Part shown: piece by piece, positions 1,427 through 46,592 of the stretch | How the letters are laid out: every line of letters begins with the position of its first letter | Numbering within the stretch: position 1 is the first letter of the stretch | Source of the DNA: Halobaculum sp. XH14 | GTDB taxonomy: Archaea; Halobacteriota; Halobacteria; Halobacteriales; Haloferacaceae | Assembly: GCF_032116555.1 (NCBI RefSeq) | Contig: NZ_CP134949.1 | Coordinates: forward strand, 806,001-870,000 | Direction: 5' to 3' | DNA: 64,000 nucleotides | The notes under the pieces: generated by a model | Database searches by the model: none | Seen by the model: the letters and a program-made list of their open reading frames with translations, nothing else | Told to the model about the DNA's origin: nothing | Made by a program: the position numbers and the translations under genes

Positions 1427-2404
1427 ATGGAGTACACGACGCTCGGCGACACCGGGATGGAGGTCTCGAAGGTGTGTCTCGGCTGCATGAGTTTCGGCGA
1501 CACCGACTGGCGCGACTGGGTGCTCGACGAGGAGGAGGGGATCGAACTCGTCGAGCGGGCCATCGACCTCGGGATCAACTTCTTCGACACCGCCAACATG
1601 TACTCCGAGGGCGGGTCCGAGCGCGTGCTGGGGAACGCGCTCTCGGAGTACGACCGGGACCGGTTCGTCGTCGCCACCAAGGGCTACTTTCGGATGGACG
1701 AGGACGACCCGAACTCGGGCGGGCTCTCCCGCAAGGCCATCGAGCAGGAACTCGACGCCTCGCTCGACCGGCTCGGGATGGAGACGGTCGACCTCTACCA
1801 GACGCACCGCTGGGACGAGACCGTCCCCATCGAGACGACGATGCGGGCGCTCGACGACGCGGTCCGGCGCGGGAAGACGCACTACGTGGGCACCTCCTCG
1901 ATGTGGGCCCACCAGTTCGCCGAGGCGCTCCACACGAGCGAGCGGCTCGACCTGGACCGGTTTCAGACGATGCAGAACCACTACAACCTGCTGTACCGCG
2001 AGGAGGAGCGGGAGATGCTCCCGCTGTGTGAACGGGAGAACGTCGGCGTCATCCCGTGGTCGCCGCTGGCGCGCGGATGGCTCGCCAGGCCCCACGGGGA
2101 GGCCCGGTCGACGACGCGCGGGGAGTCGGACACGCACGCCCATGGGCACCCGTATCTGGAGGGGGGCGGGCGCGAGATCAACGAGCGCGTGGGGGAACTG
2201 GCCGCCGAGAAGGGCGTGAAGATGGCCCAGATCGCGCTGGCCTGGCTGTTCTCGAAGGAGGAGGTCGACGCGCCCATCGTCGGGACGACGAGCGTCGAGC
2301 ACCTGGAGGACGCCGTGGAGGCGCTCGATGTGAGCCTCTCGGCCGGCGACGTCGCCTACCTGGAGGAGCCGTACGAGCCGGTTCGCGTCTCGGGCCACGA
2401 CTGA
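1427..2404 (+). CDS. Aldo/keto reductase
   Basis: NAD(P)H-dependent oxidoreductase with a TIM-barrel fold, 325 aa, which is full length for the family. The catalytic tetrad is readable as D54, Y59, K85 and H127 (DTANMYSEGG, VVATKGYF, YQTHRWD). The C-terminal part has the cofactor-binding IVGTTSVEHLEDAVEAL pattern. I chose the ATG at 1427 because MEYTTLGDTGMEVSKVCLG matches the usual family N-terminus; a TTG nine codons upstream is less likely. The physiological carbonyl substrate is unknown. It is transcribed alone and is followed at once by a pyrimidine-rich heptamer repeat. Confidence 0.93.
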   Translation: MEYTTLGDTGMEVSKVCLGCMSFGDTDWRDWVLDEEEGIELVERAIDLGINFFDTANMYSEGGSERVLGNALSEYDRDRFVVATKGYFRMDEDDPNSGGLSRKAIEQELDASLDRLGMETVDLYQTHRWDETVPIETTMRALDDAVRRGKTHYVGTSSMWAHQFAEALHTSERLDLDRFQTMQNHYNLLYREEEREMLPLCERENVGVIPWSPLARGWLARPHGEARSTTRGESDTHAHGHPYLEGGGREINERVGELAAEKGVKMAQIALAWLFSKEEVDAPIVGTTSVEHLEDAVEALDVSLSAGDVAYLEEPYEPVRVSGHD

Positions 2405-2406
2405 GG

Positions 2407-2455
2407 CTCCCGCCTCCCGTCTCCCGTCTCCCGTTTCCTGTCTCCAGTCTCCCCG
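2407..2455 (+). repeat. Tandem 7-bp repeat (CTCCCGT), seven degenerate units
   Basis: Seven consecutive heptamers follow the aldo/keto reductase stop by two bases. The first four are CTCCCGC, CTCCCGT, CTCCCGT and CTCCCGT; the last three drift. The tract is all-pyrimidine except for one purine per unit. Its position suggests either slippage-generated sequence or a role in transcript 3'-end formation. Confidence 0.85.
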
Positions 2456-2552
2456 CCTCCGAACGCGCTAGCGACCGATTAACGACCAGTTTCGTGCACG
2501 TCGGGTTCGGTATGGATGGCATTACTATCCCAATGGGGACCCGTTCACGACC

Positions 2553-2705
2553 ATGGGGTTCGTCTGGGTGTCCCAGTTCGAGTGTGCATCGTGCGGTGCG
2601 CGTGAGGCCACGACGCGGCTCCGGTACGACGACCTCGGCTACCCGGTGTGTCCGGGCTGTGGTCGGGGGCAGAACCCGGCACCCGACCGGGCGGCCGGTC
2701 ACTGA
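2553..2705 (+). CDS. Small zinc-ribbon protein (50 aa)
   Basis: A 50-residue protein starting MGFVWVSQFECASCGARE. Two CxxC knuckles (C11/C14 and C33/C36, the second as CPGCG) are separated by about 19 residues, the arrangement of a rubredoxin-like zinc ribbon. The remainder is short and polar, with no other domain. Such micro-proteins are common in haloarchaea and mostly uncharacterised, so no function is assigned. It lies 65 bp upstream of another small gene on the same strand and may share its transcript. Confidence 0.7.
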   Translation: MGFVWVSQFECASCGAREATTRLRYDDLGYPVCPGCGRGQNPAPDRAAGH

Positions 2706-2770
2706 GCCGGGGGCCGCCGGTCCGGATCGGGACCGGCCGATTGACGGTGCCGCGTCGCCTCCGGTCGAGC

Positions 2771-3001
2771 ATGACCTGGGAGGAAGCGGGAGCCGTAGGG
2801 GCCTACACGGAGTACGAGCGGACGGACGGGCACGCGACGGTCAGGCTCCGCGAGCGGGCGAGCGGCGGGTTCGTCGTCCGGCTCGACCGTCTGGAACAGG
2901 CCGCCGACGGCCCGGAGTACCGACGCGAGACGCGCGGGGACCGCGAGTCCGCCGTGGCGCTCGCCGAGGCGTGGATGGACGAGTTTTCGGTCGAGAAGTG
3001 A
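2771..3001 (+). CDS. Small conserved haloarchaeal protein (76 aa)
   Basis: The start is the ATG at 2771, giving MTWEEAGAVGAYTEYERTDG. A longer reading frame upstream is open but would overlap the zinc-ribbon gene and encodes arginine-rich sequence. The protein has alternating charged and hydrophobic strands (HATVRLRERASGGFVVRLDR) followed by an acidic helix (ESAVALAEAWMDEF), consistent with a small alpha/beta fold. No catalytic motif, cysteine or membrane segment is seen. Function unknown. A dispersed repeat copy begins about 27 bp after the stop. Confidence 0.7.
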   Translation: MTWEEAGAVGAYTEYERTDGHATVRLRERASGGFVVRLDRLEQAADGPEYRRETRGDRESAVALAEAWMDEFSVEK

Positions 3002-3027
3002 TGGCGACGCTGGATGAATCAACCGGC

Positions 3028-3163
3028 AGGCGCGCGTGACGCTCGCCCCCTCGTGGGGCGAGCACTCGCGCGCGAGGGATGAGACGCGCAGCGAGCCTGC
3101 GAGCGAGCATCGCAATCGGTTGGGGAGGGTGTGGCATCTAATCACCGCCAGCAGTAGTGGTCG
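3028..3163 (+). repeat. Dispersed intergenic repeat, type I copy
   Basis: About 135 bp beginning GGCGCGCGTGACGCTCG and ending ATCACCGCCAGCAGTAGTGG. Other copies lie at about 12024-12190 (inverted), 22133-22490 (inverted, with insertions) and 49040-49172 (direct). This copy has a perfect 9-bp stem, GCTCGCCCC at 3041-3049 against GGGGCGAGC at 3055-3063. It then has the GCAGCGAGCCTGCGAGCGAG block and a GGGGAGGGTGTGGC block shared by the copies. It sits between convergent genes. Confidence 0.85.
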
Positions 3164-3229
3164 GCGTGTTCATCTTGCCACTGCAGGTAACCCCCAGGAG
3201 TCCCACGCATTGACTCGAATCCCAACCAG

Positions 3230-4051
3230 CTAGTTCTGAAACCGCTTCGTCGTCTCGACCAGCGGGTGGCGCGCGTAGTCGACGACCTCGATGTCGCCGA
3301 TCGAGGCGAGCCCCTCCTTTCGCGCGGTCTTTTGCATCCCCAGCTCCACCGGCTCGTCGATGCAGATGACGTAGGCGTCCATCTCGTCGATGTCGGCCCG
3401 GTCGGCGGCCATCACGCGGTGGTGGCCGTCCGCGAGCACGAGCGAGCCGTCGTTGTCGATGACGACGAGCGGCTCCGCGAGGCCGCGCTCCAGTTCGTAG
3501 TGTCGCCCCTCCAGTTCGTCGGCGTACACCCGGCCCTGCGTCGGGGTGAGCGACCCGAGGTCGACGGTCCGGCGCTCCTCGTCCGTGCTGACGCCGTGGA
3601 TCTCCTCCAGGGTCCGCATCAGCTTCCCGACCTTCTCGGGCGTCGCGCGCTCGATGTGGCTGCGCACCACGTCCGTGTTCGAGATGATGCCGACGAGGTT
3701 GCCCGCGTCGTCGACGACCGGGAGCTTCTGGATGCCCGACCGGAGGATGACCCGCGCGGCGTCGGTGACGTTCATCTCCGGGTGCGCAACGATGATGTCG
3801 TCGGTCATCACGGTGAAAAGCGGCGCGTCGGGGTCCGCGAGCAGCAGGTCGCTCGCGCTGACGAACCCCACGACGGTCCGGCCGTCGGTCACCGGGAAGC
3901 CGTTGTGGCCGTCGCTCTCGGCGACCTTCTGGGCGACCTCGCGGACCGAGTCGTCGGGCGAGACGGTCGCCACGTCGCGGGTCATGTACTCCTTGACCTT
4001 GGCGCGGCGCGTGCCGAGCGTCAGGTCGGAGCCGCCGTTCATCGAACTCAT
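3230..4051 (-). CDS. CBS-pair protein with ParB-like domain
   Basis: The protein is 273 aa when read from the ATG at 4051 (MSSMNGGSDLTLGTRRAKVK); an upstream in-frame ATG at 4186 would only add low-complexity residues. Two CBS domains occupy roughly residues 18-75 and 78-135 (YMTRDVATVSPDDSVREVA; GIQKLPVVDDAGNLVGIIS) and normally bind adenosyl ligands. The C-terminal part, about 150-235, is ParB/sulfiredoxin-like, with a VLADGHHRVMAA motif. CBS domains probably regulate the ParB-like part according to nucleotide state; this is an inference from architecture. It is not next to a ParA gene, so a chromosome-partition role is not supported by context. Confidence 0.85.
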   Translation of the reverse strand: MSSMNGGSDLTLGTRRAKVKEYMTRDVATVSPDDSVREVAQKVAESDGHNGFPVTDGRTVVGFVSASDLLLADPDAPLFTVMTDDIIVAHPEMNVTDAARVILRSGIQKLPVVDDAGNLVGIISNTDVVRSHIERATPEKVGKLMRTLEEIHGVSTDEERRTVDLGSLTPTQGRVYADELEGRHYELERGLAEPLVVIDNDGSLVLADGHHRVMAADRADIDEMDAYVICIDEPVELGMQKTARKEGLASIGDIEVVDYARHPLVETTKRFQN

Positions 4052-4233
4052 GCTATCAGCGCCCGCGGGGCGGACGCGGTCGCTTCCGACTCCGGCGGTT
4101 CCGCCGGCCCCGTGGGCGTGCCCGACCGGAGTCGGGGTCGCTGGCCTGGATCCCGCATCTGCTCGCACGTCGCGCCCCAGGGGCATGAACGCTTAGGGTC
4201 ACGTCGGAGCGGTCGCGGGCCGTCGAAGCCGTC

Positions 4234-5697
4234 TCAGTCGTCCTCCTCGGGGAACGAGACGGATCGCTCGGTGTCGTGGGTGGGCGCCGAGGGCGCGTCG
4301 GCCAGCGTCTCGAAGAACCGGCCGGCGATGACGTCGCGGACGATCTCGGCCACCGACTCCGCCTCGTCCTTCTCGACCTCGGCGAGGATGCCGAGCGGGA
4401 CCTGCGCGCCGGCCATGTCGGCGTGGCCGCCGGCGCTGCCGATCTGACCGAGCGCGTCCCGAAGCGTCTCGCCAAGGTCGAGGTCGGCACCGCGGGTGCG
4501 GCCAGAAACGTACACCGTTCCCTCGGAAAAGCCGTACACGAGCGTCGTCGTGACGCCCTCCATGTCCAGCAGTTGCTCGGCGGCCTGGGCCAGCGCGTCG
4601 CGGTCCGAGAGCTCCCCGACGCAGGAAGCGACCGTCTCGCCCCGCGTCTCGCGGTTCCTGATGGCCCGCGCGATGACGTCGAGCACCTCCGAGCTGACGC
4701 TGGGCTCCTCGACGCGGGAGAGCACGTCCTGGTCGGTGTACGGCAGGAGGAACTCGGCGGCGTCGAAGTCCGCCCTGGCGGTCTCGCGGGTGAAGTCCTT
4801 CGTGTCGACGCGGATGCCGTACAGGAGCGCCGTCGCCACCTGCTCGTCGGGCTCCAGCCCGAACCGGTCCAGATACTCGGCGAGCAGCGTCGACGTCGCG
4901 CCCACGTCCGACCGGACGTCGATGAACTCCGCCTCGACGGGCACGCGCGGGGGGTGGTGGTCGACGACGATCGTCGGCCGGACGTCCCCGGGCAGGCCGT
5001 CGTTGATCCCGGGCCGCGAGTGGTCGACGAGCGCGAACGCGTCGTACGTCTCGCGCGGGTCGTCCTCGGGGTCCAGCTTCCGCATGTCGAGTTCGAGCAG
5101 GTTCACGAGCGCCCGGTTCTCCTGGTGGGAGATCTCGCCGTAGTAGCACGCCTCGGCTTCGATCCCGGCGAACTCCGCGATGCGGACGAGCGCGATCGCG
5201 GAGGCGATGGCGTCCGGGTCGGGGTTGTCGTGTGCCACCACCGCGAGCGTGCCCTCGACGCCCCGGAGCGCTCGCAACAGGTTCCACATCCGTTCTGCCG
5301 GCTCGTCGCGGGCCGCCGCCAGCACCCGATCCGTGGCGACTTGGATCGGGTCGATGACGTGATCCGAGAGCTCCGCGAGCGCCTGCAGGTCGGCCTCGTC
5401 GGCGTCGTCGCCGGCGTACGAGAGGATGAACGCGTCCGGGAACGCCGAGCGGGCCCGGTCGGCGACGGTGAGGTTCCTGGTCGCCACGTCGCCGGCGACG
5501 ACGATCATCTCGGCCCGGTCCGGGTACGTCGAGGGGTCGGTCGGGTCCGCCTCCAGGGCGTCGACGTTCTCCTCGCGGAGCGCCGTCGCTCGGCCGCTGT
5601 CGTCGGTGACGACGTGGAGTTTGCCGGGCCGGTCGGCGAGCGACGCGACGATGTCGCGGCCGACCGCGCCACAGCCGAGGACCAGCCGACACATCAC
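4234..5697 (-). CDS. DHH-family phosphoesterase with N-terminal TrkA-N-like domain
   Basis: A 487-aa two-domain protein. An N-terminal Rossmann fold starts with VLGCGAVG (residues 7-13), as in TrkA/RCK nucleotide-binding domains. The DHH phosphoesterase domain follows, with AHDNPDPDAIASA near 155 and the signature VVDHHPPR near 243. A C-terminal DHHA1 part has the GSAGGHADMAG motif. DHH/DHHA1 proteins are RecJ-like or cleave short oligonucleotides and cyclic dinucleotides; the exact substrate is not deducible. The N-terminal nucleotide-binding domain suggests ligand control. The gene lies 79 bp downstream of nuoN on the same strand, beyond a T-run, so it probably has its own promoter. Confidence 0.9.
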   Translation of the reverse strand: MMCRLVLGCGAVGRDIVASLADRPGKLHVVTDDSGRATALREENVDALEADPTDPSTYPDRAEMIVVAGDVATRNLTVADRARSAFPDAFILSYAGDDADEADLQALAELSDHVIDPIQVATDRVLAAARDEPAERMWNLLRALRGVEGTLAVVAHDNPDPDAIASAIALVRIAEFAGIEAEACYYGEISHQENRALVNLLELDMRKLDPEDDPRETYDAFALVDHSRPGINDGLPGDVRPTIVVDHHPPRVPVEAEFIDVRSDVGATSTLLAEYLDRFGLEPDEQVATALLYGIRVDTKDFTRETARADFDAAEFLLPYTDQDVLSRVEEPSVSSEVLDVIARAIRNRETRGETVASCVGELSDRDALAQAAEQLLDMEGVTTTLVYGFSEGTVYVSGRTRGADLDLGETLRDALGQIGSAGGHADMAGAQVPLGILAEVEKDEAESVAEIVRDVIAGRFFETLADAPSAPTHDTERSVSFPEEDD

Positions 5698-5754
5698 AGG
5701 GAATCGTCGCGGGCGTCCCGGAAAACCCTACCGTACTGGTCGCTTCAGCGGACG

Positions 5755-5764
5755 GGAGAAAAAC
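5755..5764 (-). terminator. Oligo-T tract downstream of nuoN
   Basis: On the minus strand a T5 run followed by CTCCC lies 18-25 nt after the nuoN stop. Short oligo-T runs are the main archaeal termination signal, and this is the first one after the nuo genes. Confidence 0.45.
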
Positions 5765-5781
5765 TGGTGCCGGACCGACCG

Positions 5782-7290
5782 TCAGGGGATCAGCGCCGCC
5801 GCGGCGGCCTGGGCCGTCTCGATGACCGGCCCGAAGCCGGGCAGCAACAGCAGCGTCGCCACGGCCGCGAACAGCACCGCGGCGTACAGCGCCGTCGGCG
5901 TCGCGCCGAGTTCGAACTCCGTCTCGGGGTCGTCGAACCAGAGCGCCTTCACGACGCGGCTGTAGTAGAACAGCGACAGCGCGCTGTTGACCGCACCGAC
6001 GGCGGCGAGCCACCAGTAGCCCGCGCCCACGGCGGCCGCGAACAGGAAGTACTTCGAGAAGAAGCCCCCGAACGGCGGCAGCCCCGCGAGCGAGAACATG
6101 AACACGGACATGGCGACCGACGCCATCGGCGCCCGCGTGCCGAGCCCCGCGTAGTCCTCGAACGTCCGGCCGATCTCCCAGTGCTCGGCGAGCGCGACGA
6201 ACAGGAACGCGCCGGTGTTCATGAAGCCGTAGACGAGCAGGTGGGCCATCGCCGCACCCATCACGTCGCCGCCGGCGGAACCGGTCCAGGCGGCGAGGCC
6301 GATGAGCGCGTAGCCGGCGTGCCCGATGGAGGAGTACGCCAGCATGCGCTTGACGGTCTCCTGGGTCGCCGCGGCGAAGTTACCCAGCGTCATCGTCACG
6401 ACCGCGAGGATCTGGAACAGGAGCACCCAGTCGACGGAGGCGACGACGTCGCCGCCCGCGAGCGGGAAGCCGACGACGAACACGCGGAACGCGAGCGCGA
6501 ACCCGGCGGCCTTCGAGGCCGACGAGAGGAAGCCACTGATGGGTGCGGGCGCGCCCTCGTACGCCTCGGGCGCCCAGAAGTGGAACGGCACGGAGGCGGT
6601 CTTGAACGCGAACCCGCCGGCGATCATCAGGATGCCGATGGCGGCGACGCCCGCGAGCCCCTCGTCCGCCTCGGTCAGCGCGGCGGCGACGTCGGGCAGC
6701 AGGAGGCTGCCGGTCGCCGCGTACACCAGCGAGATGCCGAAGACGAACACTGCCGAGGAGAGCGCGCCGATGAGGAAGTACTTCAGCCCCGCCTCGACGC
6801 TCCCGCGGTTGCCCTTCAGGAACGAGACGAGCGCGTACGAGGGGAGCGAGGCCAGTTCGAGCGCGACGAACGCCACCGCGAGCGAGTTCGCCGAGGCCAT
6901 CAGCGCCATCCCGGTCGCGGCAAACAGCGTGAGGCTGTAGAACTCCGCGCGGTGCGGGTCGTCGGCGAGGTAGTCGTAGCTCGCGACGACGACCAGCGCC
7001 GTCACCGAGGCGAACACCGCGGCGAAGAACAGCGACATGCCGTCGACGACGAGCGCCTCGCCGTACAGCGCGACGCTGTCCTCGGGACCCGAGAGCACGC
7101 CGGCAGCGCCCGTCAGCAGCGCGCCCGCCGCGCCGAGCGCCGCGAGCGAGCCGACCGTCGAGACGGCCGCGAGCAGCGTCGGCCTGTCCTCGGTCGGATA
7201 CACCGCGTTGATGATCAACAGCAGCAGTCCGGTGGCCGCGAGCAGGACGGCGGGACCGAGCGCGACGAGGCCCGAGACGAGCGTCGCCAT
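5782..7290 (-). CDS. nuoN: NADH dehydrogenase-like complex subunit N
   Basis: Antiporter-like membrane subunit of the complex I-type respiratory enzyme, 502 aa, predicted 14 transmembrane helices. The conserved membrane lysine/glutamate pattern is visible around FLKGNRGSVEAGLKYFLIGALSS and KRMLAYSSIGHAGYAL. It contributes a proton-pumping channel in the distal membrane arm. It is the last gene of the minus-strand nuo cluster: the nuoM stop (7291-7293) directly abuts its ATG (7288-7290). Haloarchaeal Nuo lacks the NADH-input module NuoEFG, so electron input is probably by ferredoxin or another donor. Confidence 0.96.
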   Translation of the reverse strand: MATLVSGLVALGPAVLLAATGLLLLIINAVYPTEDRPTLLAAVSTVGSLAALGAAGALLTGAAGVLSGPEDSVALYGEALVVDGMSLFFAAVFASVTALVVVASYDYLADDPHRAEFYSLTLFAATGMALMASANSLAVAFVALELASLPSYALVSFLKGNRGSVEAGLKYFLIGALSSAVFVFGISLVYAATGSLLLPDVAAALTEADEGLAGVAAIGILMIAGGFAFKTASVPFHFWAPEAYEGAPAPISGFLSSASKAAGFALAFRVFVVGFPLAGGDVVASVDWVLLFQILAVVTMTLGNFAAATQETVKRMLAYSSIGHAGYALIGLAAWTGSAGGDVMGAAMAHLLVYGFMNTGAFLFVALAEHWEIGRTFEDYAGLGTRAPMASVAMSVFMFSLAGLPPFGGFFSKYFLFAAAVGAGYWWLAAVGAVNSALSLFYYSRVVKALWFDDPETEFELGATPTALYAAVLFAAVATLLLLPGFGPVIETAQAAAAALIP

Positions 7291-8811
7291 CTACGCACCA
7301 CCCCCCAGCAGCGGGACGACCGCGTCGGTGATCATGCCGAAGAACGCCTCCGGGGCGACCCCCAGCGCGATGGTACACAGCAGGAGCACCGCGAGCGGCG
7401 CGGTGTCGTGGAACTTCGCGCGGGTCACCTCGTAGTCGGTTTCGAGGCGGAACGGGCCGAACAGCGTGCGCTGCATCGCCCAGAGCAGGTAGCCCGCGAC
7501 GATGACGATGCCGAACATCGCCGCCGCGGTGAAAAGCGGCGCGGCCGGCAGGACCGTCGAGGCGAACGCGCCCTGGAAGATGAAGAACTCGGCGGCGAAG
7601 CCGGCCATCAGGGGCAGGCCCATGTAGCCGAATGCGCCGGCGACGAAGATGCCCGCGGTGACGGGCATCCGGTCTGCCATGCCGCCCATGTCGCCGAGCA
7701 TGCGCGTGTGGGTGACGTTGTAGATGACGCCGACCGCCATGAACATCAGCCCCGAGATGAGCCCGTGGGCGACCATCTGGAACGTCGCGCCGCCGATGCC
7801 GAACTCGGTGTAGGCGACGAGTCCGAGGATGACGTAGCCCATCGAGGACACCGACGAGTAGGCGACGATGCGCTTGAGGTCCTGCTGGGCCAGCGCGAGC
7901 ATCGCGCCGTAGATGACCGAGAGGACGGCGATGGCCGCGATTGGCACCGCGAGCGTCGCCGCGACGTCGGGTAGCATCGTGAAGTTGAACCGGAGCAGGG
8001 CGTACGTCCCCATCTTCAGGAGGACGCCCGCCAGCATCACCGAGGCGGGCGTCGGGGCCTCGACGTGGGCGTCGGGCAGCCACGTGTGGACCGGGACGAC
8101 GGGAACCTTCACCGCGAAGCCGAAGAACATCGCGGCGAACGCGACGGTGGCGAGCGTGCCGGCGCCCATCCCGAGGAAGCCAGAGAGTTCACCCCCGCGG
8201 AGCGCCTGCGCGATGGCCGGCAGCCCGAAGCTGTCGACGGGGAGGTTGAACACGAGCGCCATGAAGCCGATGAACATGATCAGCGAGGCGACGTTCGTGT
8301 ACACGAAGAACTTGATCGCCGCGTACTCGCGGCGCGGGCCGCCCCAGACCCCGATGAGGAAGTACATCGGGACGAGCACGGCCTCCCAGAAGACGAACCA
8401 GACGAAGAAGTCCAGCGCCGCGAACACGCCGAGCAGGTTCGCCTCCATGAACAGCATCAGCCCGTAGAACTGGCTCTGGCGCTCGTCGATGGGCGTCCAC
8501 GCCGACAGGATCGCCAGCGAGGTGAGCACCGTCGAGAGGACGATCAGCGGGAGGCTGATCCCGTCGAGGCCGACGAACCACTGGAGCGTGTAGCCGCCGA
8601 CGGTGAGCCAGTCGATCTGCGTCTCGAAGGCGAGCGATCCGCCCGACAGCAGGGCGTTGCCGGTCGCGTCGAACGCCGACCACATGTACAGGCTCCCGAC
8701 GACCGGGAGCAGGCTGAGGCCGAAGCCGACGCGGCCGGCGTACTCGTCCGGCGAGAGGAACGTTGCCAGCGCGGCCAGGAACGTGAATCCGATGAGTGCT
8801 TCGAGTATCAC
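7291..8811 (-). CDS. nuoM: NADH dehydrogenase-like complex subunit M
   Basis: A 506-aa antiporter-like subunit with about 14 helices. Conserved blocks include FVFWEAVLVPMYFLIGVWGG (key membrane glutamate), KVPVVPVHTWLPDAHVEAPT and KRIVAYSSVSSMGYVILGL. I place the start at the GTG at 8811: it forms a GTGA overlap with the nuoL stop, the coupling style used elsewhere in this operon, and gives MILEALIGFTFL, typical for NuoM. A GTG three codons upstream (8820) is possible. It acts in the proton-pumping arm with NuoL and NuoN. Confidence 0.95.
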   Translation of the reverse strand: MILEALIGFTFLAALATFLSPDEYAGRVGFGLSLLPVVGSLYMWSAFDATGNALLSGGSLAFETQIDWLTVGGYTLQWFVGLDGISLPLIVLSTVLTSLAILSAWTPIDERQSQFYGLMLFMEANLLGVFAALDFFVWFVFWEAVLVPMYFLIGVWGGPRREYAAIKFFVYTNVASLIMFIGFMALVFNLPVDSFGLPAIAQALRGGELSGFLGMGAGTLATVAFAAMFFGFAVKVPVVPVHTWLPDAHVEAPTPASVMLAGVLLKMGTYALLRFNFTMLPDVAATLAVPIAAIAVLSVIYGAMLALAQQDLKRIVAYSSVSSMGYVILGLVAYTEFGIGGATFQMVAHGLISGLMFMAVGVIYNVTHTRMLGDMGGMADRMPVTAGIFVAGAFGYMGLPLMAGFAAEFFIFQGAFASTVLPAAPLFTAAAMFGIVIVAGYLLWAMQRTLFGPFRLETDYEVTRAKFHDTAPLAVLLLCTIALGVAPEAFFGMITDAVVPLLGGGA

Positions 8812-10868
8812 AGCAACCACCCTCCGTAGATGCCGAAGGCGATGAGAAGGACCGTCAGGCCCAGCGTGACCAGCGCCGCGTAGTTACTGACGACGCCGGT
8901 CTGGATGCGGCGGATCCGCGAGCCCGAAAAGAGGCTCACGGAGGAGACGGCGTTGACCGCGCCGTCGACGACGCCCTGATCGAAGGTGTCCGCGGCCCGC
9001 GAGAGCGGGGCGACGACCCGGGTCGCCAGGAACACCTGGTACTCGTCCTGGTAGTAGTTGTTGTACAGCAGGTCCTGGACGGAGCCGAGCCGTGCGGTGT
9101 GCTCGTCGGGCTCCGGGACCGCGTACAGCGAGTATGCGAGTCCGGCCCCGACCAGCGCGAGCCCGAGCGAGACGACCGCGCCGCCGAGCACCGTGGCGAG
9201 TTTACTGCCGGCGACCGTGCCCGTGGAGTAGCCCGCGAAGTCGTGGACGAGGTCCCCGTAGTAGTGTGCGGTCAGTCCCTCGAAGCCCCCGTCGAGCCAC
9301 GAGTGCAGGAAGTCGATGGGTGCGCCCGTGAGCACCTGGACCGGCACCATGTTGATGAAGCCGGCCGTCGCGGCGAGGACGCCGAGCACGACGAGCGGGG
9401 CCTTCACGTTCCAGCCGACCGCCTCGGGCGACTCGGCCTGTCCGGTCCGGGCGTCGCCGTGGAACGTGAGGAACACCATCCGGAACGTGTAGAACGCGGT
9501 CACCGGGACGGCGAGCAGGCCCATCGCGTAGCCCAGGAACAGCAGCGGCGTGCCGCCCAGGCCATGGGCGAGCGCCTCGTAGAGGATCTCGTCCTTCGAC
9601 CAGAAGCCGGCGAACGGGAAGATGCCCGCGAGCGCCAGCGAGCCGGCGAGGAACGTGTAGTAGGTGACGGGCATCCTGTCCTTCAGCCCGCCCATGTCCC
9701 ACATGTTCTCGTTGTGGTGCATCGCGATGATGACCGAGCCGGCACCGAGGAACAGCAGCGCCTTGAAGAACGCGTGGGTGAGCAGGTGGAACGTCGCCGC
9801 GACGTAGCCGCCCGCGCCCAGCGCGAGCATCATGTAGCCGTACTGTGAGATGGTCGAGTACGCGAGCACCTGCTTCAGTTCGCGCTTCACGATGCCCATC
9901 GACCCGGCGAACAGGGCGGTGAAGCCGCCGACCAGCGTGATGACGCCCAGCGCCGTCGGCGACACCGCGTAGAAGCCGTACATCCGGGCGACGAGGTAGA
10001 CCCCGGCCGCGACCATCGTCGCCGCGTGGATGAGCGCGGACACCGGGGTCGGGCCCTCCATCGCGTCGGGCAGCCAGGTGTGGAGCGGGAACTGGGCGGA
10101 CTTGCCGATCACGCCGCCCAGCACGAGCAGGCCGACGACCGTGAACCACGCCTCGGGACCGAGCCCCAGGAACGTGCTCACGGCTTCGGGCATCGCGGTC
10201 TCCGCATTCAGCGCGGCCGCAGCGAGCGCCGGGAACGAGTTCTCGCCCGCGAACTGCGCGGTGCCGAAGGTGGCGAAGACGGCGACGACGCCGACGAGGA
10301 AGAAGTAGTCCCCGAAGCGCGTCACCAGGAACGCCTTCTTCGCGGCCGAGGGCGGGCCGGCCTCCCGGAAGTGGAAGCCGATGAGCAGGAACGAGCAGAG
10401 CCCGACCAGCTCGAAGAACATGAACGCCATGAGCAGGTTGTCGGCGACGACGAACCCGAGCATGGACGCGGTGAACAGGCCGAGGCCGGCGTAGTAGCGC
10501 GGTAGGCCGGTCTCGCCCTCGTCGTTCATGTAGCCGAGCGAGAACACGTGGACCAGCAGCGCGACGAGCGAGACGATGACGAGCATCAGCGCCGCGAGCG
10601 GGTCGAGCAGCAGGCCGAAGGAGAGTTCGAGGTCGCCCGCGGCGGCCCACGTGTACAGCGTCTCGTCGTAGGCGTTCCCGCCGCCCACGGTCAGTGCGAC
10701 CCACGCCGAGAGCAGCAGTGATCCGGCGGTCGCGGCGATGCCGGCGAACGCGCCGCCCTTCGGGAGGACGTCCGAGTCCTCGCCGGAGAGCGCGCCGCCG
10801 AGCGAGATGAGGAACGACAGGAACGGCAGCAGGACGATGGCCGGCGCGTAGTCGAATGCTCCCGCCAT
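8808..10868 (-). CDS. nuoL: NADH dehydrogenase-like complex subunit L
   Basis: A 686-aa distal antiporter-like subunit with many helices and a long C-terminal lateral helix region. Diagnostic blocks include FFELVGLCSFLLIGF, KSAQFPLHTWLPDAMEGPTPVSALIHAATMV (first half only quoted in part: TPVSALIHAATMV) and LTHAFFKALLFLGAGS. It starts at the ATG at 10868, one base after the nuoK stop, and ends in a GTGA overlap with nuoM. It forms the end of the membrane arm and probably couples quinone reduction to ion transport. Confidence 0.96.
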   Translation of the reverse strand: MAGAFDYAPAIVLLPFLSFLISLGGALSGEDSDVLPKGGAFAGIAATAGSLLLSAWVALTVGGGNAYDETLYTWAAAGDLELSFGLLLDPLAALMLVIVSLVALLVHVFSLGYMNDEGETGLPRYYAGLGLFTASMLGFVVADNLLMAFMFFELVGLCSFLLIGFHFREAGPPSAAKKAFLVTRFGDYFFLVGVVAVFATFGTAQFAGENSFPALAAAALNAETAMPEAVSTFLGLGPEAWFTVVGLLVLGGVIGKSAQFPLHTWLPDAMEGPTPVSALIHAATMVAAGVYLVARMYGFYAVSPTALGVITLVGGFTALFAGSMGIVKRELKQVLAYSTISQYGYMMLALGAGGYVAATFHLLTHAFFKALLFLGAGSVIIAMHHNENMWDMGGLKDRMPVTYYTFLAGSLALAGIFPFAGFWSKDEILYEALAHGLGGTPLLFLGYAMGLLAVPVTAFYTFRMVFLTFHGDARTGQAESPEAVGWNVKAPLVVLGVLAATAGFINMVPVQVLTGAPIDFLHSWLDGGFEGLTAHYYGDLVHDFAGYSTGTVAGSKLATVLGGAVVSLGLALVGAGLAYSLYAVPEPDEHTARLGSVQDLLYNNYYQDEYQVFLATRVVAPLSRAADTFDQGVVDGAVNAVSSVSLFSGSRIRRIQTGVVSNYAALVTLGLTVLLIAFGIYGGWLL

Positions 10869-40860: not shown

Positions 40861-40911
40861 TCAGTTGTACTCGCGCCACCGATAGCCGCACTCCTTACAT
40901 TTGCAAGAGTG
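40861..40911 (-). other. Displaced tfs 3' end (left attachment site region)
   Basis: The minus strand reads ...CACTCTTGCAAATGTAAGG... and ends GAGTACAACTGA, encoding a 14-residue tail homologous to the TFS C-terminal zinc ribbon (two cysteines, then RWREYN and stop). No start or upstream ribbon accompanies it. It is best explained as the original chromosomal end of tfs, displaced by integration. Confidence 0.75.
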
Positions 40912-41150: not shown

Positions 41151-42329
41151 ATGAGTAAGGCAAACGATACATCGGACAGTAGTGGCAACGCTGACTTAAA
41201 AGAGAATCAGGCGCAACAGGACTTGTGCGATTTCCTGTCTGAGCGAAGCGAGCTTGTCGTCTCCTACGAGGAGCCAGACGACGGGCGGGACCGTCGCCAC
41301 GACTGCCTACCTGTCGCCCGAACGACGGACGGAGACAAGGCAGACGTGAGCGATTTCCCCAGTGGCAAGAACGACGGTCGGGGCAACTTCAGTAAGTCCA
41401 CCTACACCCGATACCGGGATACGATGAACGACTTCATCCAAACGCAAGACGTGAGCGACTTGATGGACGTGACGCCCCGAGAGATTAACCGCTACAATCA
41501 GGTGACGCAACGCCGGGACTATGCCCGGACCACTCGTGACGGATTGCTCGAAACTCTCGAAGTGTTCTTCAAGTGGGCAGAAACGGAGTGGCGTGCGCCA
41601 CGAGGGGACGATAAGCTCAGTGAGACAATCGCCCGAAAGCGTGAGGATTTGGACGTAGGTGGCGACGAGAAATCACGGGCAGGCGACGACAATCACCGTA
41701 TCTCGACTGAGCGAGCAGAGGAGATAGTCGGACACTTGGCGAAACACCAGTACGCCTCTCGCCAGATGATTGAGTTTCTGCTAATCTATCACGTCGGTAT
41801 GCGGAAATCCGCGCTACTGTCTATCAATTGCGACGACGTGATGCCACGGAAGGGAATCATCCAGATTCGCAATCGCCCGGAGCAGACAGGGGTTCGACTC
41901 AAGCGAGGGAACAAGGGTGAGCGAGACGTGAATATCGCCAGTGGCGTCATGGGTGTCGTCACTGACTACATAGACGAGAATCGGACAGAACCGCAAGACA
42001 GCAGTGACGCGCTACTCACGTCATGGGCGGGACGGATAGACGACTCCACTCTATACCGGGACATTACGGGATTGACGAAGTGCGGAGAGTGTACCGACGA
42101 CGACGGCGAGCCTCTCGTCAACCAGAATGCCTCAGACTGTCCCGAGTCTATCGGTTGCCACGACTTGCGACGAGTGGCAATCACCCGAATGCGGGACGAA
42201 GGAGTGTCGTGGGATACGATTAGTGGACGAGTGAATGCGACTGTCCAAATGCTCAAGGACCACTACGATTCCCCGACTCACTCACAGGCGGCAGAACGCC
42301 GGAAGGAGGAGATATTGAACGCACTGTAG
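41151..42329 (+). CDS. int: Tyrosine recombinase / integrase of the element
   Basis: A 392-aa phage-type integrase. The N-terminal region is acidic and disordered; a SAM-like core-binding domain spans about 80-155 (STYTRYRDTMNDFIQTQDV). The catalytic domain has R218 (HVGMRKSALL), H337-x-x-R340 (CHDLRRV) and the probable nucleophile Y372 (LKDHYDSPTH); the usual second histidine position appears as R360. A CxxC...C insert (KCGECTDDDGEPLVNQNASD) looks zinc-binding. Codon use is less GC-rich than the flanking genes. It lies at the left end of the element, next to the displaced tfs tail, as expected for an element integrase. Confidence 0.9.
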   Translation: MSKANDTSDSSGNADLKENQAQQDLCDFLSERSELVVSYEEPDDGRDRRHDCLPVARTTDGDKADVSDFPSGKNDGRGNFSKSTYTRYRDTMNDFIQTQDVSDLMDVTPREINRYNQVTQRRDYARTTRDGLLETLEVFFKWAETEWRAPRGDDKLSETIARKREDLDVGGDEKSRAGDDNHRISTERAEEIVGHLAKHQYASRQMIEFLLIYHVGMRKSALLSINCDDVMPRKGIIQIRNRPEQTGVRLKRGNKGERDVNIASGVMGVVTDYIDENRTEPQDSSDALLTSWAGRIDDSTLYRDITGLTKCGECTDDDGEPLVNQNASDCPESIGCHDLRRVAITRMRDEGVSWDTISGRVNATVQMLKDHYDSPTHSQAAERRKEEILNAL

Positions 42330-42809: not shown

Positions 42810-43061
42810 TTACTTGCCGTTACCGTGCATCCATTCCCGAATCTCGTCTTGAGCTTCGGAAACTTCTTTCTCTTTCTCTACCGAATTGTTTTCCGATAGG
42901 CTGGAAGATTGTTCGTTTTGCAAATATTCTCTTGCCAATGCCGCAATAACCGAATCAATATCGTTATGGTCCGAATTTCGCTTGATTTTATTAAGGAGAC
43001 TCTTGGTGCTTTCGGACAATTGTTCACTATTCCGTGGAGAAAGGGCGAAATCTTCACTCAT
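42810..43061 (-). CDS. Small element protein (83 aa), helical
   Basis: An 83-aa protein starting MSEDFALSPRNSEQLSESTK at the ATG at 43061, overlapping the stop of the gene before it by 8 nt. Two helical segments (SLLNKIKRNSDHNDIDSVIA; ALAREYLQNEQ) are followed by a serine/glutamate-rich tail. It is the last gene of a three-gene minus-strand operon that starts at an RHH-like protein. It may be a regulator or partner protein; no family recognised. Confidence 0.65.
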   Translation of the reverse strand: MSEDFALSPRNSEQLSESTKSLLNKIKRNSDHNDIDSVIAALAREYLQNEQSSSLSENNSVEKEKEVSEAQDEIREWMHGNGK

Positions 43062-43464
43062 CAACTACCGCCTCACAGAATACTTTGAGCATATGCCGAA
43101 CCTGTTGGGCAAGCTTGCCATTCCGGCGATAGGCATTCCGGGGACCTGTCGTCTCAATCCCGTGGTTGTCCATGAGTGCCATTTCTCGCGGAGTGACGGC
43201 AATCTCAAGCGGCAGATAGACCGACTCGGATACGTCCGTAGGCTCGGAGGCAGATACGTCGTATGGGGTTACGTCGCCCCGAATGACGGCACGACACCAA
43301 TCACCGAATGCCGAATTGTGGTGAAGGGTAGAAGCACTATCAGGCTCCGGTTCTCCCATGCTGGCGTAAGCTTCTCGAAGAATCTGTACCTCTCTATCGG
43401 GAATCTTACACGTAGTGGTCCGTGAATCCGACTCTCGCGGATTCGGGAAGGTCGCGCTACTCAT
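43054..43464 (-). CDS. Element protein of unknown function (136 aa)
   Basis: A 136-aa protein from the ATG at 43464 (MSSATFPNPRESDSRTTTCK). It looks mostly alpha-helical, with KIPDREVQILREAYASMGEP near the N-terminus and MALMDNHGIETTGPRNAYRR near the C-terminus, the latter resembling a small DNA-binding turn. No cysteine pair or catalytic motif. It overlaps the upstream 44-aa gene by 8 nt and the downstream gene by 8 nt, so all three are cotranslated. Confidence 0.65.
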   Translation of the reverse strand: MSSATFPNPRESDSRTTTCKIPDREVQILREAYASMGEPEPDSASTLHHNSAFGDWCRAVIRGDVTPYDVSASEPTDVSESVYLPLEIAVTPREMALMDNHGIETTGPRNAYRRNGKLAQQVRHMLKVFCEAVVDE

Positions 43465-43591
43465 GTCCCTCAAGGTAGTCTTCCGCAAGCAGTCGTACCA
43501 TGACACCGCGAGGAACCTGTCGGTTCTCTCCAAAGCGTACCTCTGTCGCTTCGGCAAGGGTGTCAAGCTCATCCTCAGTCAATCGTAGCAT
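43457..43591 (-). CDS. Small ribbon-helix-helix-like regulator (44 aa)
   Basis: Reads MLRLTEDELDTLAEATEVRF then GENRQVPRGVMVRLLAEDYL and ends EGHE. A short strand followed by two helices fits a minimal RHH/CopG-type DNA-binding protein. The ATG at 43591 is preferred over one at 43609 because TTTAAA (43613-43618) is centred 25 bases upstream of it, giving a leaderless message. It is the first gene of the minus-strand operon in the element and a candidate autoregulator. Confidence 0.6.
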   Translation of the reverse strand: MLRLTEDELDTLAEATEVRFGENRQVPRGVMVRLLAEDYLEGHE

Positions 43592-43798: not shown

Positions 43799-44249
43799 CA
43801 CATACGTACTCCACGTACTTAAATCTTTCGGTTTTTTGATATATCATTTGCTATCAATCGCATATTGCCTGATGAGATTTGCCTATATTTTTGCGATTCG
43901 GCAGGCGAAGGCCCGAGACTGATAACATATAAACTATATAAAAAAACTGACCTATCAAATTATCAAACTCATATATTCAAACCGACATATTGGGGAAGAT
44001 TTCTATTCAATCAGACATATTAAAGAGATTGAAGTTTCGAAAGATTTAAGTGTCCAGAGCACGTACATATTATCAGGCAGTTTAGATATAACGACTGATA
44101 CATCTACGCGGAATTAGAGTAAGTAGAGCAGAGGGGAAAGCGGCACAAACCCCAACTACCCAAAGACATATATTAGTTGGGTCTACAGGCACTTAAAGCT
44201 TTCGGCTACTTCCCCTCTGCTTGCATCCGTTTTCTGCCTATGATTCAGT
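43799..44249 (+). other. AT-rich region with iteron-like repeats, candidate replication origin
   Basis: About 450 bp without a convincing gene and much more AT-rich than the rest of the window. TATTCAAACCGACATATT (43974-43991) and TATTCAATCAGACATATT (44004-44021) are 30 bp apart and match at 16 of 18 positions; further GACATAT or TACATATTA variants lie at about 44065 and 44165. It directly precedes the small membrane gene and the putative Rep gene, as plasmid origins often do. A complementary pair, CAGAGGGGAAGC... (about 44129) and GCTACTTCCCCTCTG (44205-44219), encloses the last part. The start region near 44220-44249 should hold the rep promoter. Confidence 0.5.
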
Positions 44250-44372
44250 ATGCAAGCAAACGAAACAAACCAAACTAACAGCAACGCGACAGAAACATCT
44301 CTCGAAGTATCGGGGACCGTGGTTTTCCAAGTCCTTTGGTTCACTCTCGTAGTGGCGGTGATTCTCCTATGA
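44250..44372 (+). CDS. Small element membrane protein (40 aa)
   Basis: Reads MQANETNQTNSNATETSLEV followed by SGTVVFQVLWFTLVVAVILL. The C-terminal half is one transmembrane helix. The 17-residue polar N-terminus contains three N-x-T sequons (N4, N7, N12), so the peptide could be N-glycosylated if that side faces out. Its stop overlaps the ATG of the putative Rep gene (ATGA), so the two are translated together. Too short for family assignment. Confidence 0.55.
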   Translation: MQANETNQTNSNATETSLEVSGTVVFQVLWFTLVVAVILL

Positions 44373-45400
44373 GTGCGACAGAGTGCCTTCGAGGGATGGC
44401 AGAGATACTTGATGAGACGGACGTGACGATAGAATGGCCTGTCACTGAATTACCCAATGCTAACTCCACACGCATTGATACATTCTTGACATGGCTTGAG
44501 GAACGTAGGGACAAGGCTCACCCGTATCCCCTTCAACACACATGGTCCCACCGAAACGCCCGCAAGCGATTTGCTCGCTCGAAGGATGTGGACCGCTACT
44601 ATTGGGACACCTACGACAAGTTCACGACAGTATTGCTCACTCGTACTGCCGACGAGAGTACCGCCGGACTGATTGAGCAATCGGAGTCATTCAACCCACG
44701 GGCATACAAGGCGAAACGTCGCAGAATGCTCAAGAGCCTGTCTGACGACTATGCAGGAGTCTCGTGCATCGCTCCAAAGTACAACCTACCCATGGCTAAC
44801 TCCACAGTCTTGAGCCATGTGCATGAAGCCTACTGGGTCCCCGGACACTACTCGGCAGAGGATTTTGAACCCCTCTTAGACAAGCACCGTGAGACGGTCC
44901 CCGGAGCGACGACGGCACACGTCTCAGTGCAACGGCACTCTGCCGACAGCTACCCATGCCTAACTCCACAGAGTGAGACGGACGCAATCCGTGGGGCGAC
45001 GACGGCACTCCCGTATGAGCTTGCGGAGAACCTACCACTGATGAACGTAGCGACGGACGCAAGCGACTTGCACGATAGTCGTGCGCTCGAATGGTGCGCC
45101 CGCCTCTCGGCAGGCTCAGACGGGGACCACTCCACCAAGGGTGTACGTCGATGGCAACCGTTCGGGCAATTCCGTGAGTGCGCGGATACGGTGAAGGATG
45201 GCCTACGCTACAAGGTGGAGAGAGACTATAGGAGAACCGTCAGAGACGAGAAACTGAATAACCCATGGCTAAGTCCACAGCCATTGGATGAATCGAAGGC
45301 TTCCCCTCGTACAATCTCGCAACCCGCCAGAGACGCACTGATTCAAGCGGTGGCTCAGTATGCCCGAATGCCCTCTCCCGACCCCATGGAGGTATTCTGA
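44369..45400 (+). CDS. Putative HUH-type rolling-circle replication initiator
   Basis: A 343-aa protein starting MSATECLRGMAEILDETDVT. Features in order: a strand FTTVLLTRTAD (85-95) like Rep motif I; a H150-V151-H152 HUH motif in VLSHVHEAYWVPGHYSAEDF; a candidate nucleophile Y216 in LPYELAENLPLMN; and a C-terminal WCARLSAGSDGDHSTKGVRR region with a G-V-R-R-W pattern seen in archaeal Reps. No helicase domain. The length fits haloarchaeal plasmid and provirus Reps. The gene itself holds four copies of a 19-bp repeat in two reading frames. Motif III lacks the usual lysine, so the call is tentative. Confidence 0.55.
   Translation: MSATECLRGMAEILDETDVTIEWPVTELPNANSTRIDTFLTWLEERRDKAHPYPLQHTWSHRNARKRFARSKDVDRYYWDTYDKFTTVLLTRTADESTAGLIEQSESFNPRAYKAKRRRMLKSLSDDYAGVSCIAPKYNLPMANSTVLSHVHEAYWVPGHYSAEDFEPLLDKHRETVPGATTAHVSVQRHSADSYPCLTPQSETDAIRGATTALPYELAENLPLMNVATDASDLHDSRALEWCARLSAGSDGDHSTKGVRRWQPFGQFRECADTVKDGLRYKVERDYRRTVRDEKLNNPWLSPQPLDESKASPRTISQPARDALIQAVAQYARMPSPDPMEVF
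44452..45279 (+). repeat. Four 19-bp repeats inside the rep-like gene
   Basis: Consensus ACCCATGGCTAACTCCACA at 44452-44470, 44788-44806, 44952-44970 and 45261-45279, each within two bases of the consensus. The first two are read in one frame (NANSTR, MANSTV) and the last two in another (CLTPQS, WLSPQP), so the DNA sequence, not the peptide, is conserved. Confidence 0.9.
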
Positions 45401-45475: not shown

Positions 45476-45805
45476 ATGAACTCGGAAATCGACCTAACAA
45501 TTCCAGAAACTCACGACAGAATCGTAGAAATCGTAACCGCCTCTCTCGAATCCGAGGGAATCGACTATGAAACCGAACGGTGGCTTGACGACAAGTCACG
45601 GGTTGATGTATTCTACGATGAGATAGTTCTTGAAATCAAGTCATCGGTAGGAGTAGTGAATCACGACAAGCTTGCCCGATACGAGGCACACCCGGAAGTG
45701 GCGGAAGTGGTGTTAGTCATGCCCGAACCCCATGCTTCGAGGGTCGAGACAGGGGACTATCGGACCCTCACGATTCCGCGAGAGAAATTCACCGTGACAT
45801 TCTGA
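45476..45805 (+). CDS. PD-(D/E)XK-like small protein (109 aa)
   Basis: A 109-aa protein with the arrangement RVDVFYDEIVLEIKSSVGVV: D44, then E53-x-K55 on adjacent strands. This is the metal-binding core of the PD-(D/E)XK nuclease fold. Flanking helices (THDRIVEIVTASLESEGIDY; NHDKLARYEAHPEV) fit a minimal version of that fold. It could be a nuclease, a resolvase-like protein or an inactive relative; substrate unknown. It follows the Rep-like gene by 75 bp in the integrated element and has the same AT-leaning codon use. Confidence 0.65.
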   Translation: MNSEIDLTIPETHDRIVEIVTASLESEGIDYETERWLDDKSRVDVFYDEIVLEIKSSVGVVNHDKLARYEAHPEVAEVVLVMPEPHASRVETGDYRTLTIPREKFTVTF

Positions 45806-46268: not shown

Positions 46269-46320
46269 TTAGTTATACTCTCTCCAGCGGTTATGACAAT
46301 CTTTGCACTTGAAAAAGCGC
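46269..46320 (-). other. Right attachment site region within tfs
   Basis: The base composition of the tfs coding strand changes near 46305. Compared in register, this end and the left end at 40861-40911 agree at about 64 percent of 53 positions but share no long identical core. Either the donor carried a diverged tfs end or the core is very short. Confidence 0.55.
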
Positions 46321-46592
46321 GTCGGCGGTTCGTCCGCGGCGCCGGTCTGCTTGATGGTGTACCACGCGACGCCGTGCCCGCAGTCGTCGCAGGTCACGTC
46401 GTCGGAGGTTGGCTTCCCCTCGAAGTTCGCGCCCTCCTCCGTCTCGATGACGTCGTCGTCGCTCTGTTCCTCGGTGGAGACGAACCGGGCGGCGCGCTCC
46501 TCGTCGCGCGCCTCGCTGTGGCCACATGAGGTACAGACCATCCGGCCGTCCTCGCTCACCATCATCGAGCCGCACTCCTCGCAGAACTGCAT
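46269..46592 (-). CDS. tfs: Transcription elongation factor S (archaeal TFS), 3' end supplied by integrated element
   Basis: A 107-aa homologue of TFIIS and RPB9/RPC11 that stimulates RNA polymerase transcript cleavage. N-terminal zinc ribbon C4/C7/C20/C23 (FCEECGSMM; VCTSCGHSE) and C-terminal ribbon C68/C71/C96/C99. The catalytic acidic pair is D87-E88 in GAADEPPTR. The last roughly 14 codons (FKCKDCHNRWREYN) are AT-rich, unlike the rest of the gene, and appear to come from the element integrated at its 3' end. The probable original GC-rich end remains at 40861-40911. The protein stays intact, so function is probably retained. Confidence 0.92.
   Translation of the reverse strand: MQFCEECGSMMVSEDGRMVCTSCGHSEARDEERAARFVSTEEQSDDDVIETEEGANFEGKPTSDDVTCDDCGHGVAWYTIKQTGAADEPPTRFFKCKDCHNRWREYN

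Follow-up and report, generated by a model that had tools for sequence, protein, structure and literature searches.

The window, a 64,000-nucleotide stretch of Halobaculum sp. XH14 (contig NZ_CP134949.1, positions 806,001 to 870,000), carries a small integrated plasmid-like element, about 5.4 kb in length and located at the 3′ end of the host gene for transcription factor S (tfs). The G+C content of the element is 51%, against 70% in its flanks, and its genes and other features are listed in Table 1. On the right the element is bounded by the intact tfs gene and on the left, at 40861–40905, by a displaced 3′ end of tfs (CKCKECGYRWREYN, with the stop codon); no exact attL/attR repeat was found for this element, the displaced tfs end being seen instead.

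A protein search of 392 genomes of the order gave a match in 17, the window's own counted. Twelve family genes were analysed: L059 (the window gene), L060 to L069, and L088. L060 is from Halolamina salifodinae (also handled as L006 and L053), L061 from Haloarcula rara (L007, L054), L063 from genome G156, L066 from G108, and L088 from G526 (L086). The elements of L062 and L068, which have integrases related to that of the window, adjoin tfs too.

The segment 43573–44250, upstream of rep, is noncoding and has promoter-type sequences on both strands (43818 on the minus, 44038 on the plus and 44192 on the minus strand); the archaeal promoter-type CGAAAnnTTTAAG is found on both strands here. The layout of a noncoding stretch with an inverted repeat is similar ahead of rep in L060–L062, and, judged by eye, the stem seems to be preserved in L061 and L062 although its arms have other sequences there. 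This segment is possibly an origin or a regulatory RNA; Rfam gave no known RNA family in the region. ORFs resembling the 40-aa one occupy the same place ahead of rep in L061 and L062, and a short similar stretch is present in L060. The 109-aa protein on the other side of rep shows a D...ExK pattern that by eye is PD-(D/E)XK nuclease-like, and it has no Pfam match.

Table 1. Features of the integrated element and its right border, in window coordinates.
Feature	Coordinates	Strand	Remarks
Tyrosine integrase	41151..42329	+	85% identical to that of L062, 81% to that of L068
Two small ORFs (84 and 172 aa)	42810..43572	-	Putative regulators of the element
Long inverted repeat upstream of rep	44127..44221		AGCAGAGGGGAA / TTCCCCTCTGCT; candidate origin or structured leader
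Membrane-type ORF (40 aa)	44250..44372	+	Stop overlaps the rep start by ATGA
Rep-like gene (343 aa)	44369..45400	+	Predicted HUH-derived; H150xH152; E217 and N221 in place of the motif-III tyrosines
Site 1	44450..44471	+	TTACCCAATGCTAACTCCACAC; encodes LPNANST, N-terminal linker
Possible short hairpin, site 1	44455..44477	+	CAATGC / GCATTG
Site 2	44786..44807	+	CTACCCATGGCTAACTCCACAG; encodes LPMANST, loop immediately ahead of the HxH motif
Site 3	44950..44971	+	CTACCCATGCCTAACTCCACAG; other frame, YPCLTPQ; loop from core strand to motif III
Site 4	45259..45280	+	TAACCCATGGCTAAGTCCACAG; other frame, NPWLSPQ; C-terminal tail
Possible short hairpin, site 4	45265..45284	+	ATGGCT / AGCCAT
109-aa protein 3′ of rep	45476..45805	+	73.6% identical to the Halolamina protein in the same place
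Transcription factor S (tfs) gene	46269..46592	-	Host gene, intact; right border, element at its 3′ end

The rep-like gene had been predicted to hold four near-identical repeats with at most two changes per copy, two in each of two reading frames and encoding unrelated peptides, and both statements are confirmed. The 20-letter site ACCCATGGCTAACTCCACA occurs four times in 44369–45400, with 2, 0, 1 and 1 mismatches at 44452, 44788, 44952 and 45261, where none is expected from dinucleotide shuffles; the repeat unit reaches about 22 nt. Copies 1 and 2 start at codon offset 2 and are read as LPNANSTR and LPMANSTV, and copies 3 and 4 start at codon offset 1 and are read as YPCLTPQS and NPWLSPQP. 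The repeat score of the gene is 66, compared with a maximum of 16 among 60 synonymous-codon shuffles, in which codons are permuted among positions of the same amino acid and the protein is unchanged. The four-copy repeat is a real feature of the gene. A genome-wide short repeat was ruled out: at up to two mismatches to a degenerate consensus, these four are the sole copies in the whole Halobaculum genome. Spaced at 336, 164 and 309 bp, the sites are spread over about 830 bp, to either side of the part that encodes HxH, and, unlike iterons, are not clustered into a single origin segment (overall, sites lie 160–370 bp apart). The gene itself showed no origin of the AT-rich or nick type.

The closest comparison is with Halolamina salifodinae (L060), whose protein is 73% identical to that of the window and whose gene carries the same word at four places, with the same 336/164/309 spacing and with all frames kept. 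Identical bases number 83 of 88 within the sites and 658 of 923 elsewhere. Excess synonymous conservation, proposed as a check on the repeat, is present in this pair: in codons for the same residue the third position is unchanged in 22 of 23 cases within the sites, as against 116 of 206 elsewhere, and over all third positions the excess at the sites is significant (Fisher p = 4e-6).

The repeat was also to be looked for in other relatives, and here different words were found at homologous places. The H. rara gene (L061; 51% protein identity to the window) has four copies of another word, TACCCACCCGNANANAACGGT / TACCCACCCGCAGAGAACGGT-like, spaced at 360, 163 and 289 bp; these are distributed over three frames, and their alignment positions are homologous to the four window sites. 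L088, found later and serving as a blind check, has four copies of nearly the L061 word, of which three share a frame and the fourth is in a different one, at spacings of 369, 163 and 272 bp; over the stretch that aligns, its protein shares 60% identity with that of H. rara. Synonymous conservation between L061 and L088, a more diverged pair, is marginal (p = 0.03, codons with identical residues). Selection on the nucleotide sequence, as the original prediction had it, is thus well supported by the excess synonymous conservation, the use of two frames, and the recurrence of the pattern with other words in homologues. Rather than peptides being kept while nucleotides drift, the nucleotides are either kept or jointly changed.

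In the genomes searched, the words are nearly absent outside rep. That of H. rara is confined to rep; in G526 one additional copy lies in the 5′ portion of rep that is detached from the remainder, and another contig carries one match, with 2 mismatches. The two parts of the G526 rep are on separate contigs with 81 bp in common (L088 5517–5723 and L089 5050–5290), and on one of them the site-1 word coincides with the junction to a host-like flavoprotein fragment; a genuine rearrangement and an artefact of assembly are both possible explanations.

Other members of the family depart further from the window gene. L063 has six in-gene copies of AGTACCGGGGGCTAACTCCG, all in one frame (VPGxxSVxE), and one outside the gene, some 70 bp inward from the right-hand att core of its provirus-like element; L066 has three copies of yet another word. 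In both L065 and L067 a single forward copy lies within the gene and a second, inverted one at the stop codon, alongside weaker matches, and L062 has related weak sites at best (three pairs, P 0.007–0.05). Six of the twelve genes (L059, L060, L061, L088, L063 and L066) score above all 60 synonymous-codon shuffles and the other six (L062, L064, L065, L067, L068 and L069) do not; in L064, L068 and L069 no in-gene repeat was clearly beyond chance. None of six plasmid Rep controls exceeds all of its synonymous-codon shuffles. L063 and L066 are picked up by a free scan but missed by an alignment-anchored test, since site 4 has no aligned counterpart among their C-terminal copies.

Two side observations concern the surroundings of these genes. 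The L063 element (1725–10679, about 8.95 kb) lies inside an amine oxidase gene, with att core AACACCTTCTT, and encodes a baseplate/tail-like protein as well as the rep relative, with an HNH/HTH gene upstream of the latter. L069, a distant family member, has a direct repeat of about 27 bp (4893–4922 and 6277–6306 on the reverse complement), one unit lying in the 5′ portion of rep and the other about 580 bp past the gene end.

As judged by profile comparison, the window protein is a divergent relative of the haloarchaeal rolling-circle Reps (DUF1424). A Pfam scan matched it to DUF1424 (putative Rep) at 16.1 bits, under the gathering score of 23 bits, and gave a weak unrelated match and no RepA_N domain. 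Eight of the 12 family members match PF07232 (E up to 0.1; best 1.1e-11), six match a PHROG named replication protein (best 3.7e-7), and the family profile aligns with six small haloarchaeal plasmid Reps at an hhalign probability of 98.5% (E 2.8e-15); four of these six plasmid Reps match the model REP_ORF2-G2P. Direct search with the window protein found no viral, phage or plasmid relatives, and the distant plasmid relatives were reached solely via L018. A poor AlphaFold2 model (six sequences; pLDDT 47.5) has core strands and helices in plausible order, but its Foldseek matches are unspecific and it does not confirm the HUH fold.

H150 and H152 are invariant in the 12 family members and in the plasmid Reps. 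The plasmid Reps have two invariant motif-III tyrosines, YLxxY (Y263/Y267 in pSN numbering), and the residues aligned to these, E217 and N221, are invariant in all 12 family members; other distant haloarchaeal relatives retain one or both tyrosines. Y216, previously singled out together with the HxH motif, is not conserved, other members having H, Q, S, A, G or T there. The earlier designation of the gene as a putative HUH initiator stands as regards Rep/HUH ancestry, to which the hhalign match and the invariant histidines point. It is doubtful in the nicking sense, since E217 and N221, both invariant, stand where motif III of the plasmid Reps has its tyrosines, and the window protein is probably not a classical nicking initiator.

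Comparison of the word-bearing loci bears on what reads the sites. The window and L060 share a word and differ in integrase and regulators. The window word was also considered as an integrase site and rejected, the L062 element having an integrase 85% shared with that of the window and lacking its word. The rep gene is the one element gene present in every word-bearing locus, which by elimination makes its product the most likely reader. That some other protein, a host factor or the 109-aa neighbour of rep, reads the sites for segregation, silencing or regulation seems unlikely to us. The neighbour is common to both same-word loci, but L061 and L063 have words and lack it; neither integrase nor regulators follow the word; and G156 and G108, which belong to one genus, have different words, which argues against a host factor.

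A different reading, rather unlikely but with more to be said for it, is that the sites act in RNA or as single-stranded DNA hairpins: short stem-loops in the rep mRNA would be bound by the rep protein or by an RNA in translational autoregulation, or the HUH domain would read hairpins. The outer sites 1 and 4 form short stems in both clades, with a compensatory T:A to G:C change at site 1 between L059 and L060 (homologue CAAGGC / GCCTTG) and a compensatory C:G to A:T change at site 4 between L061 and L088; the L063 words are near-perfect dyads, and every in-gene copy in six genes is sense-oriented. The inner sites 2 and 3, however, fold poorly, the words of L065 and L066 are mostly without a fold, and the combined folding signal, coming mainly from the outer sites and L063, is modest and was picked after the fact. 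Upstream sequences are no more complementary to their own word than to the words of other elements, and pairing between the upstream region and the word, as an antisense or small RNA, was rejected, own-word matches being no better than those with other elements' upstream regions. The copies at the gene ends of L065 and L067 are inverted, which favours recognition of double-stranded DNA over RNA. That the sites are instead nick, insertion or other cleavage or recombination targets of the element we regard as improbable. A breakpoint of the split G526 rep does fall at the site-1 word and the L063 copy lies near one att end, but the former is a single case in an incomplete assembly, active direct repeats would delete the gene, and neither motif-III tyrosine is present. 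Peptide-level repeats, gene conversion or chance would be a very improbable source of the pattern: the L063 copies do share one frame, but L059, L060, L061 and L088 use two or three, protein-preserving shuffles never match the observed score, and the site flanks are not homogenised.

The preferred reading, which we rate as evenly poised, is that a tyrosine-less, HUH-derived protein would bind dispersed sites in its own gene and act in replication or copy control, in autoregulation, or in both. The ancestor would have been a rolling-circle HUH Rep whose catalytic tyrosines were lost. The four sites of about 20 bp would be recognition sites within the loop- and linker-coding parts of the gene, most likely recognised by the protein that rep encodes. 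When specificity shifts, all copies in a gene would change together, because the sites must match their reader, so that each lineage would have its own word at the same positions. Protein bound at several of these dispersed sites could then bring about iteron-like initiation or copy control, repression of the gene, or both; the intragenic origin or copy-control role originally suggested is plausible. We more tentatively propose, as something possible though on the doubtful side, that cognate sites lie at homologous loop positions in any frame, that protein and sites re-specify together, and that the gene serves both as coding unit and as a nucleoprotein platform with multiple sites, used in replication or in copy control, which would be the first intragenic self-recognition of this kind to be described in archaea.

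The family constitutes a natural series of gene–site pairs in which positions are the same and words differ, and it offers a test bed for joint specificity change of an initiator-like protein and its DNA sites. It bears as well on how DNA signals can be carried within coding sequence in more than one frame, and, as an HUH lineage that kept the metal-binding histidines and lost the nicking tyrosines, on the passage from nicking Reps to origin binders.

Several known systems share part of this arrangement. RepA_N plasmids of the pSK41 type have four Rep boxes located centrally within rep (PMC5703833). As in the window gene, there are several sites within an initiator coding sequence, in pSK41 bound by its own product (PMC5703833), and the repeated in-gene sites of the window gene show DNA-level constraint, as in pSK41-type initiators. 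The RepA_N domain, however, is unrelated to the window protein, and the pSK41 boxes lie in one central linker-coding stretch (PMC5703833), whereas the sites of the window family are dispersed and their word changes jointly between homologues. In the pT181 family the dso is inside rep (PMC5703833), which resembles the origin sequence within the rep coding region proposed for the window gene; it differs in being a single dso with bind and nick sites, acted on by a Rep_trans family protein with an active tyrosine (PMC5703833). The window family is homologous to HUH Reps; Rep-Arvir (SNJ2), an initiator of haloarchaeal integrative elements, is by contrast related to Rep_trans, with a MarR-like wHTH, an origin hairpin downstream of rep and a replication operon restored upon excision (PMC13107129). 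The origin-binding domains of polyomaviruses and papillomaviruses are inactivated HUH domains that bind origin DNA, and so provide a precedent for an origin-binding HUH domain with its nuclease function lost (PMC6668415); they have no HUH motif at all and are fused to a helicase, while in the window family HxH is invariant and no helicase is fused.

The DUF1424-type plasmid Reps (pSN, pZMX201, pNB101 and pHF2) share with the window family a homologous core and the HxH motif, but they keep Y263/Y267 and their rep genes are without comparable repeated words; no description of repeated sites within a DUF1424-type rep gene was found in the open-licence literature. The lambda O gene holds the ori iterons, so that initiator sites lie inside the initiator gene and specificity varies between relatives; unlike those of the window gene, the iterons are adjacent, and the protein is unrelated. 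Intragenic initiator sites are already known from pSK41 and pT181, and what appears to be new is the joint word change of dispersed sites at homologous loop positions, with frame disregarded, together with loss of the tyrosines.
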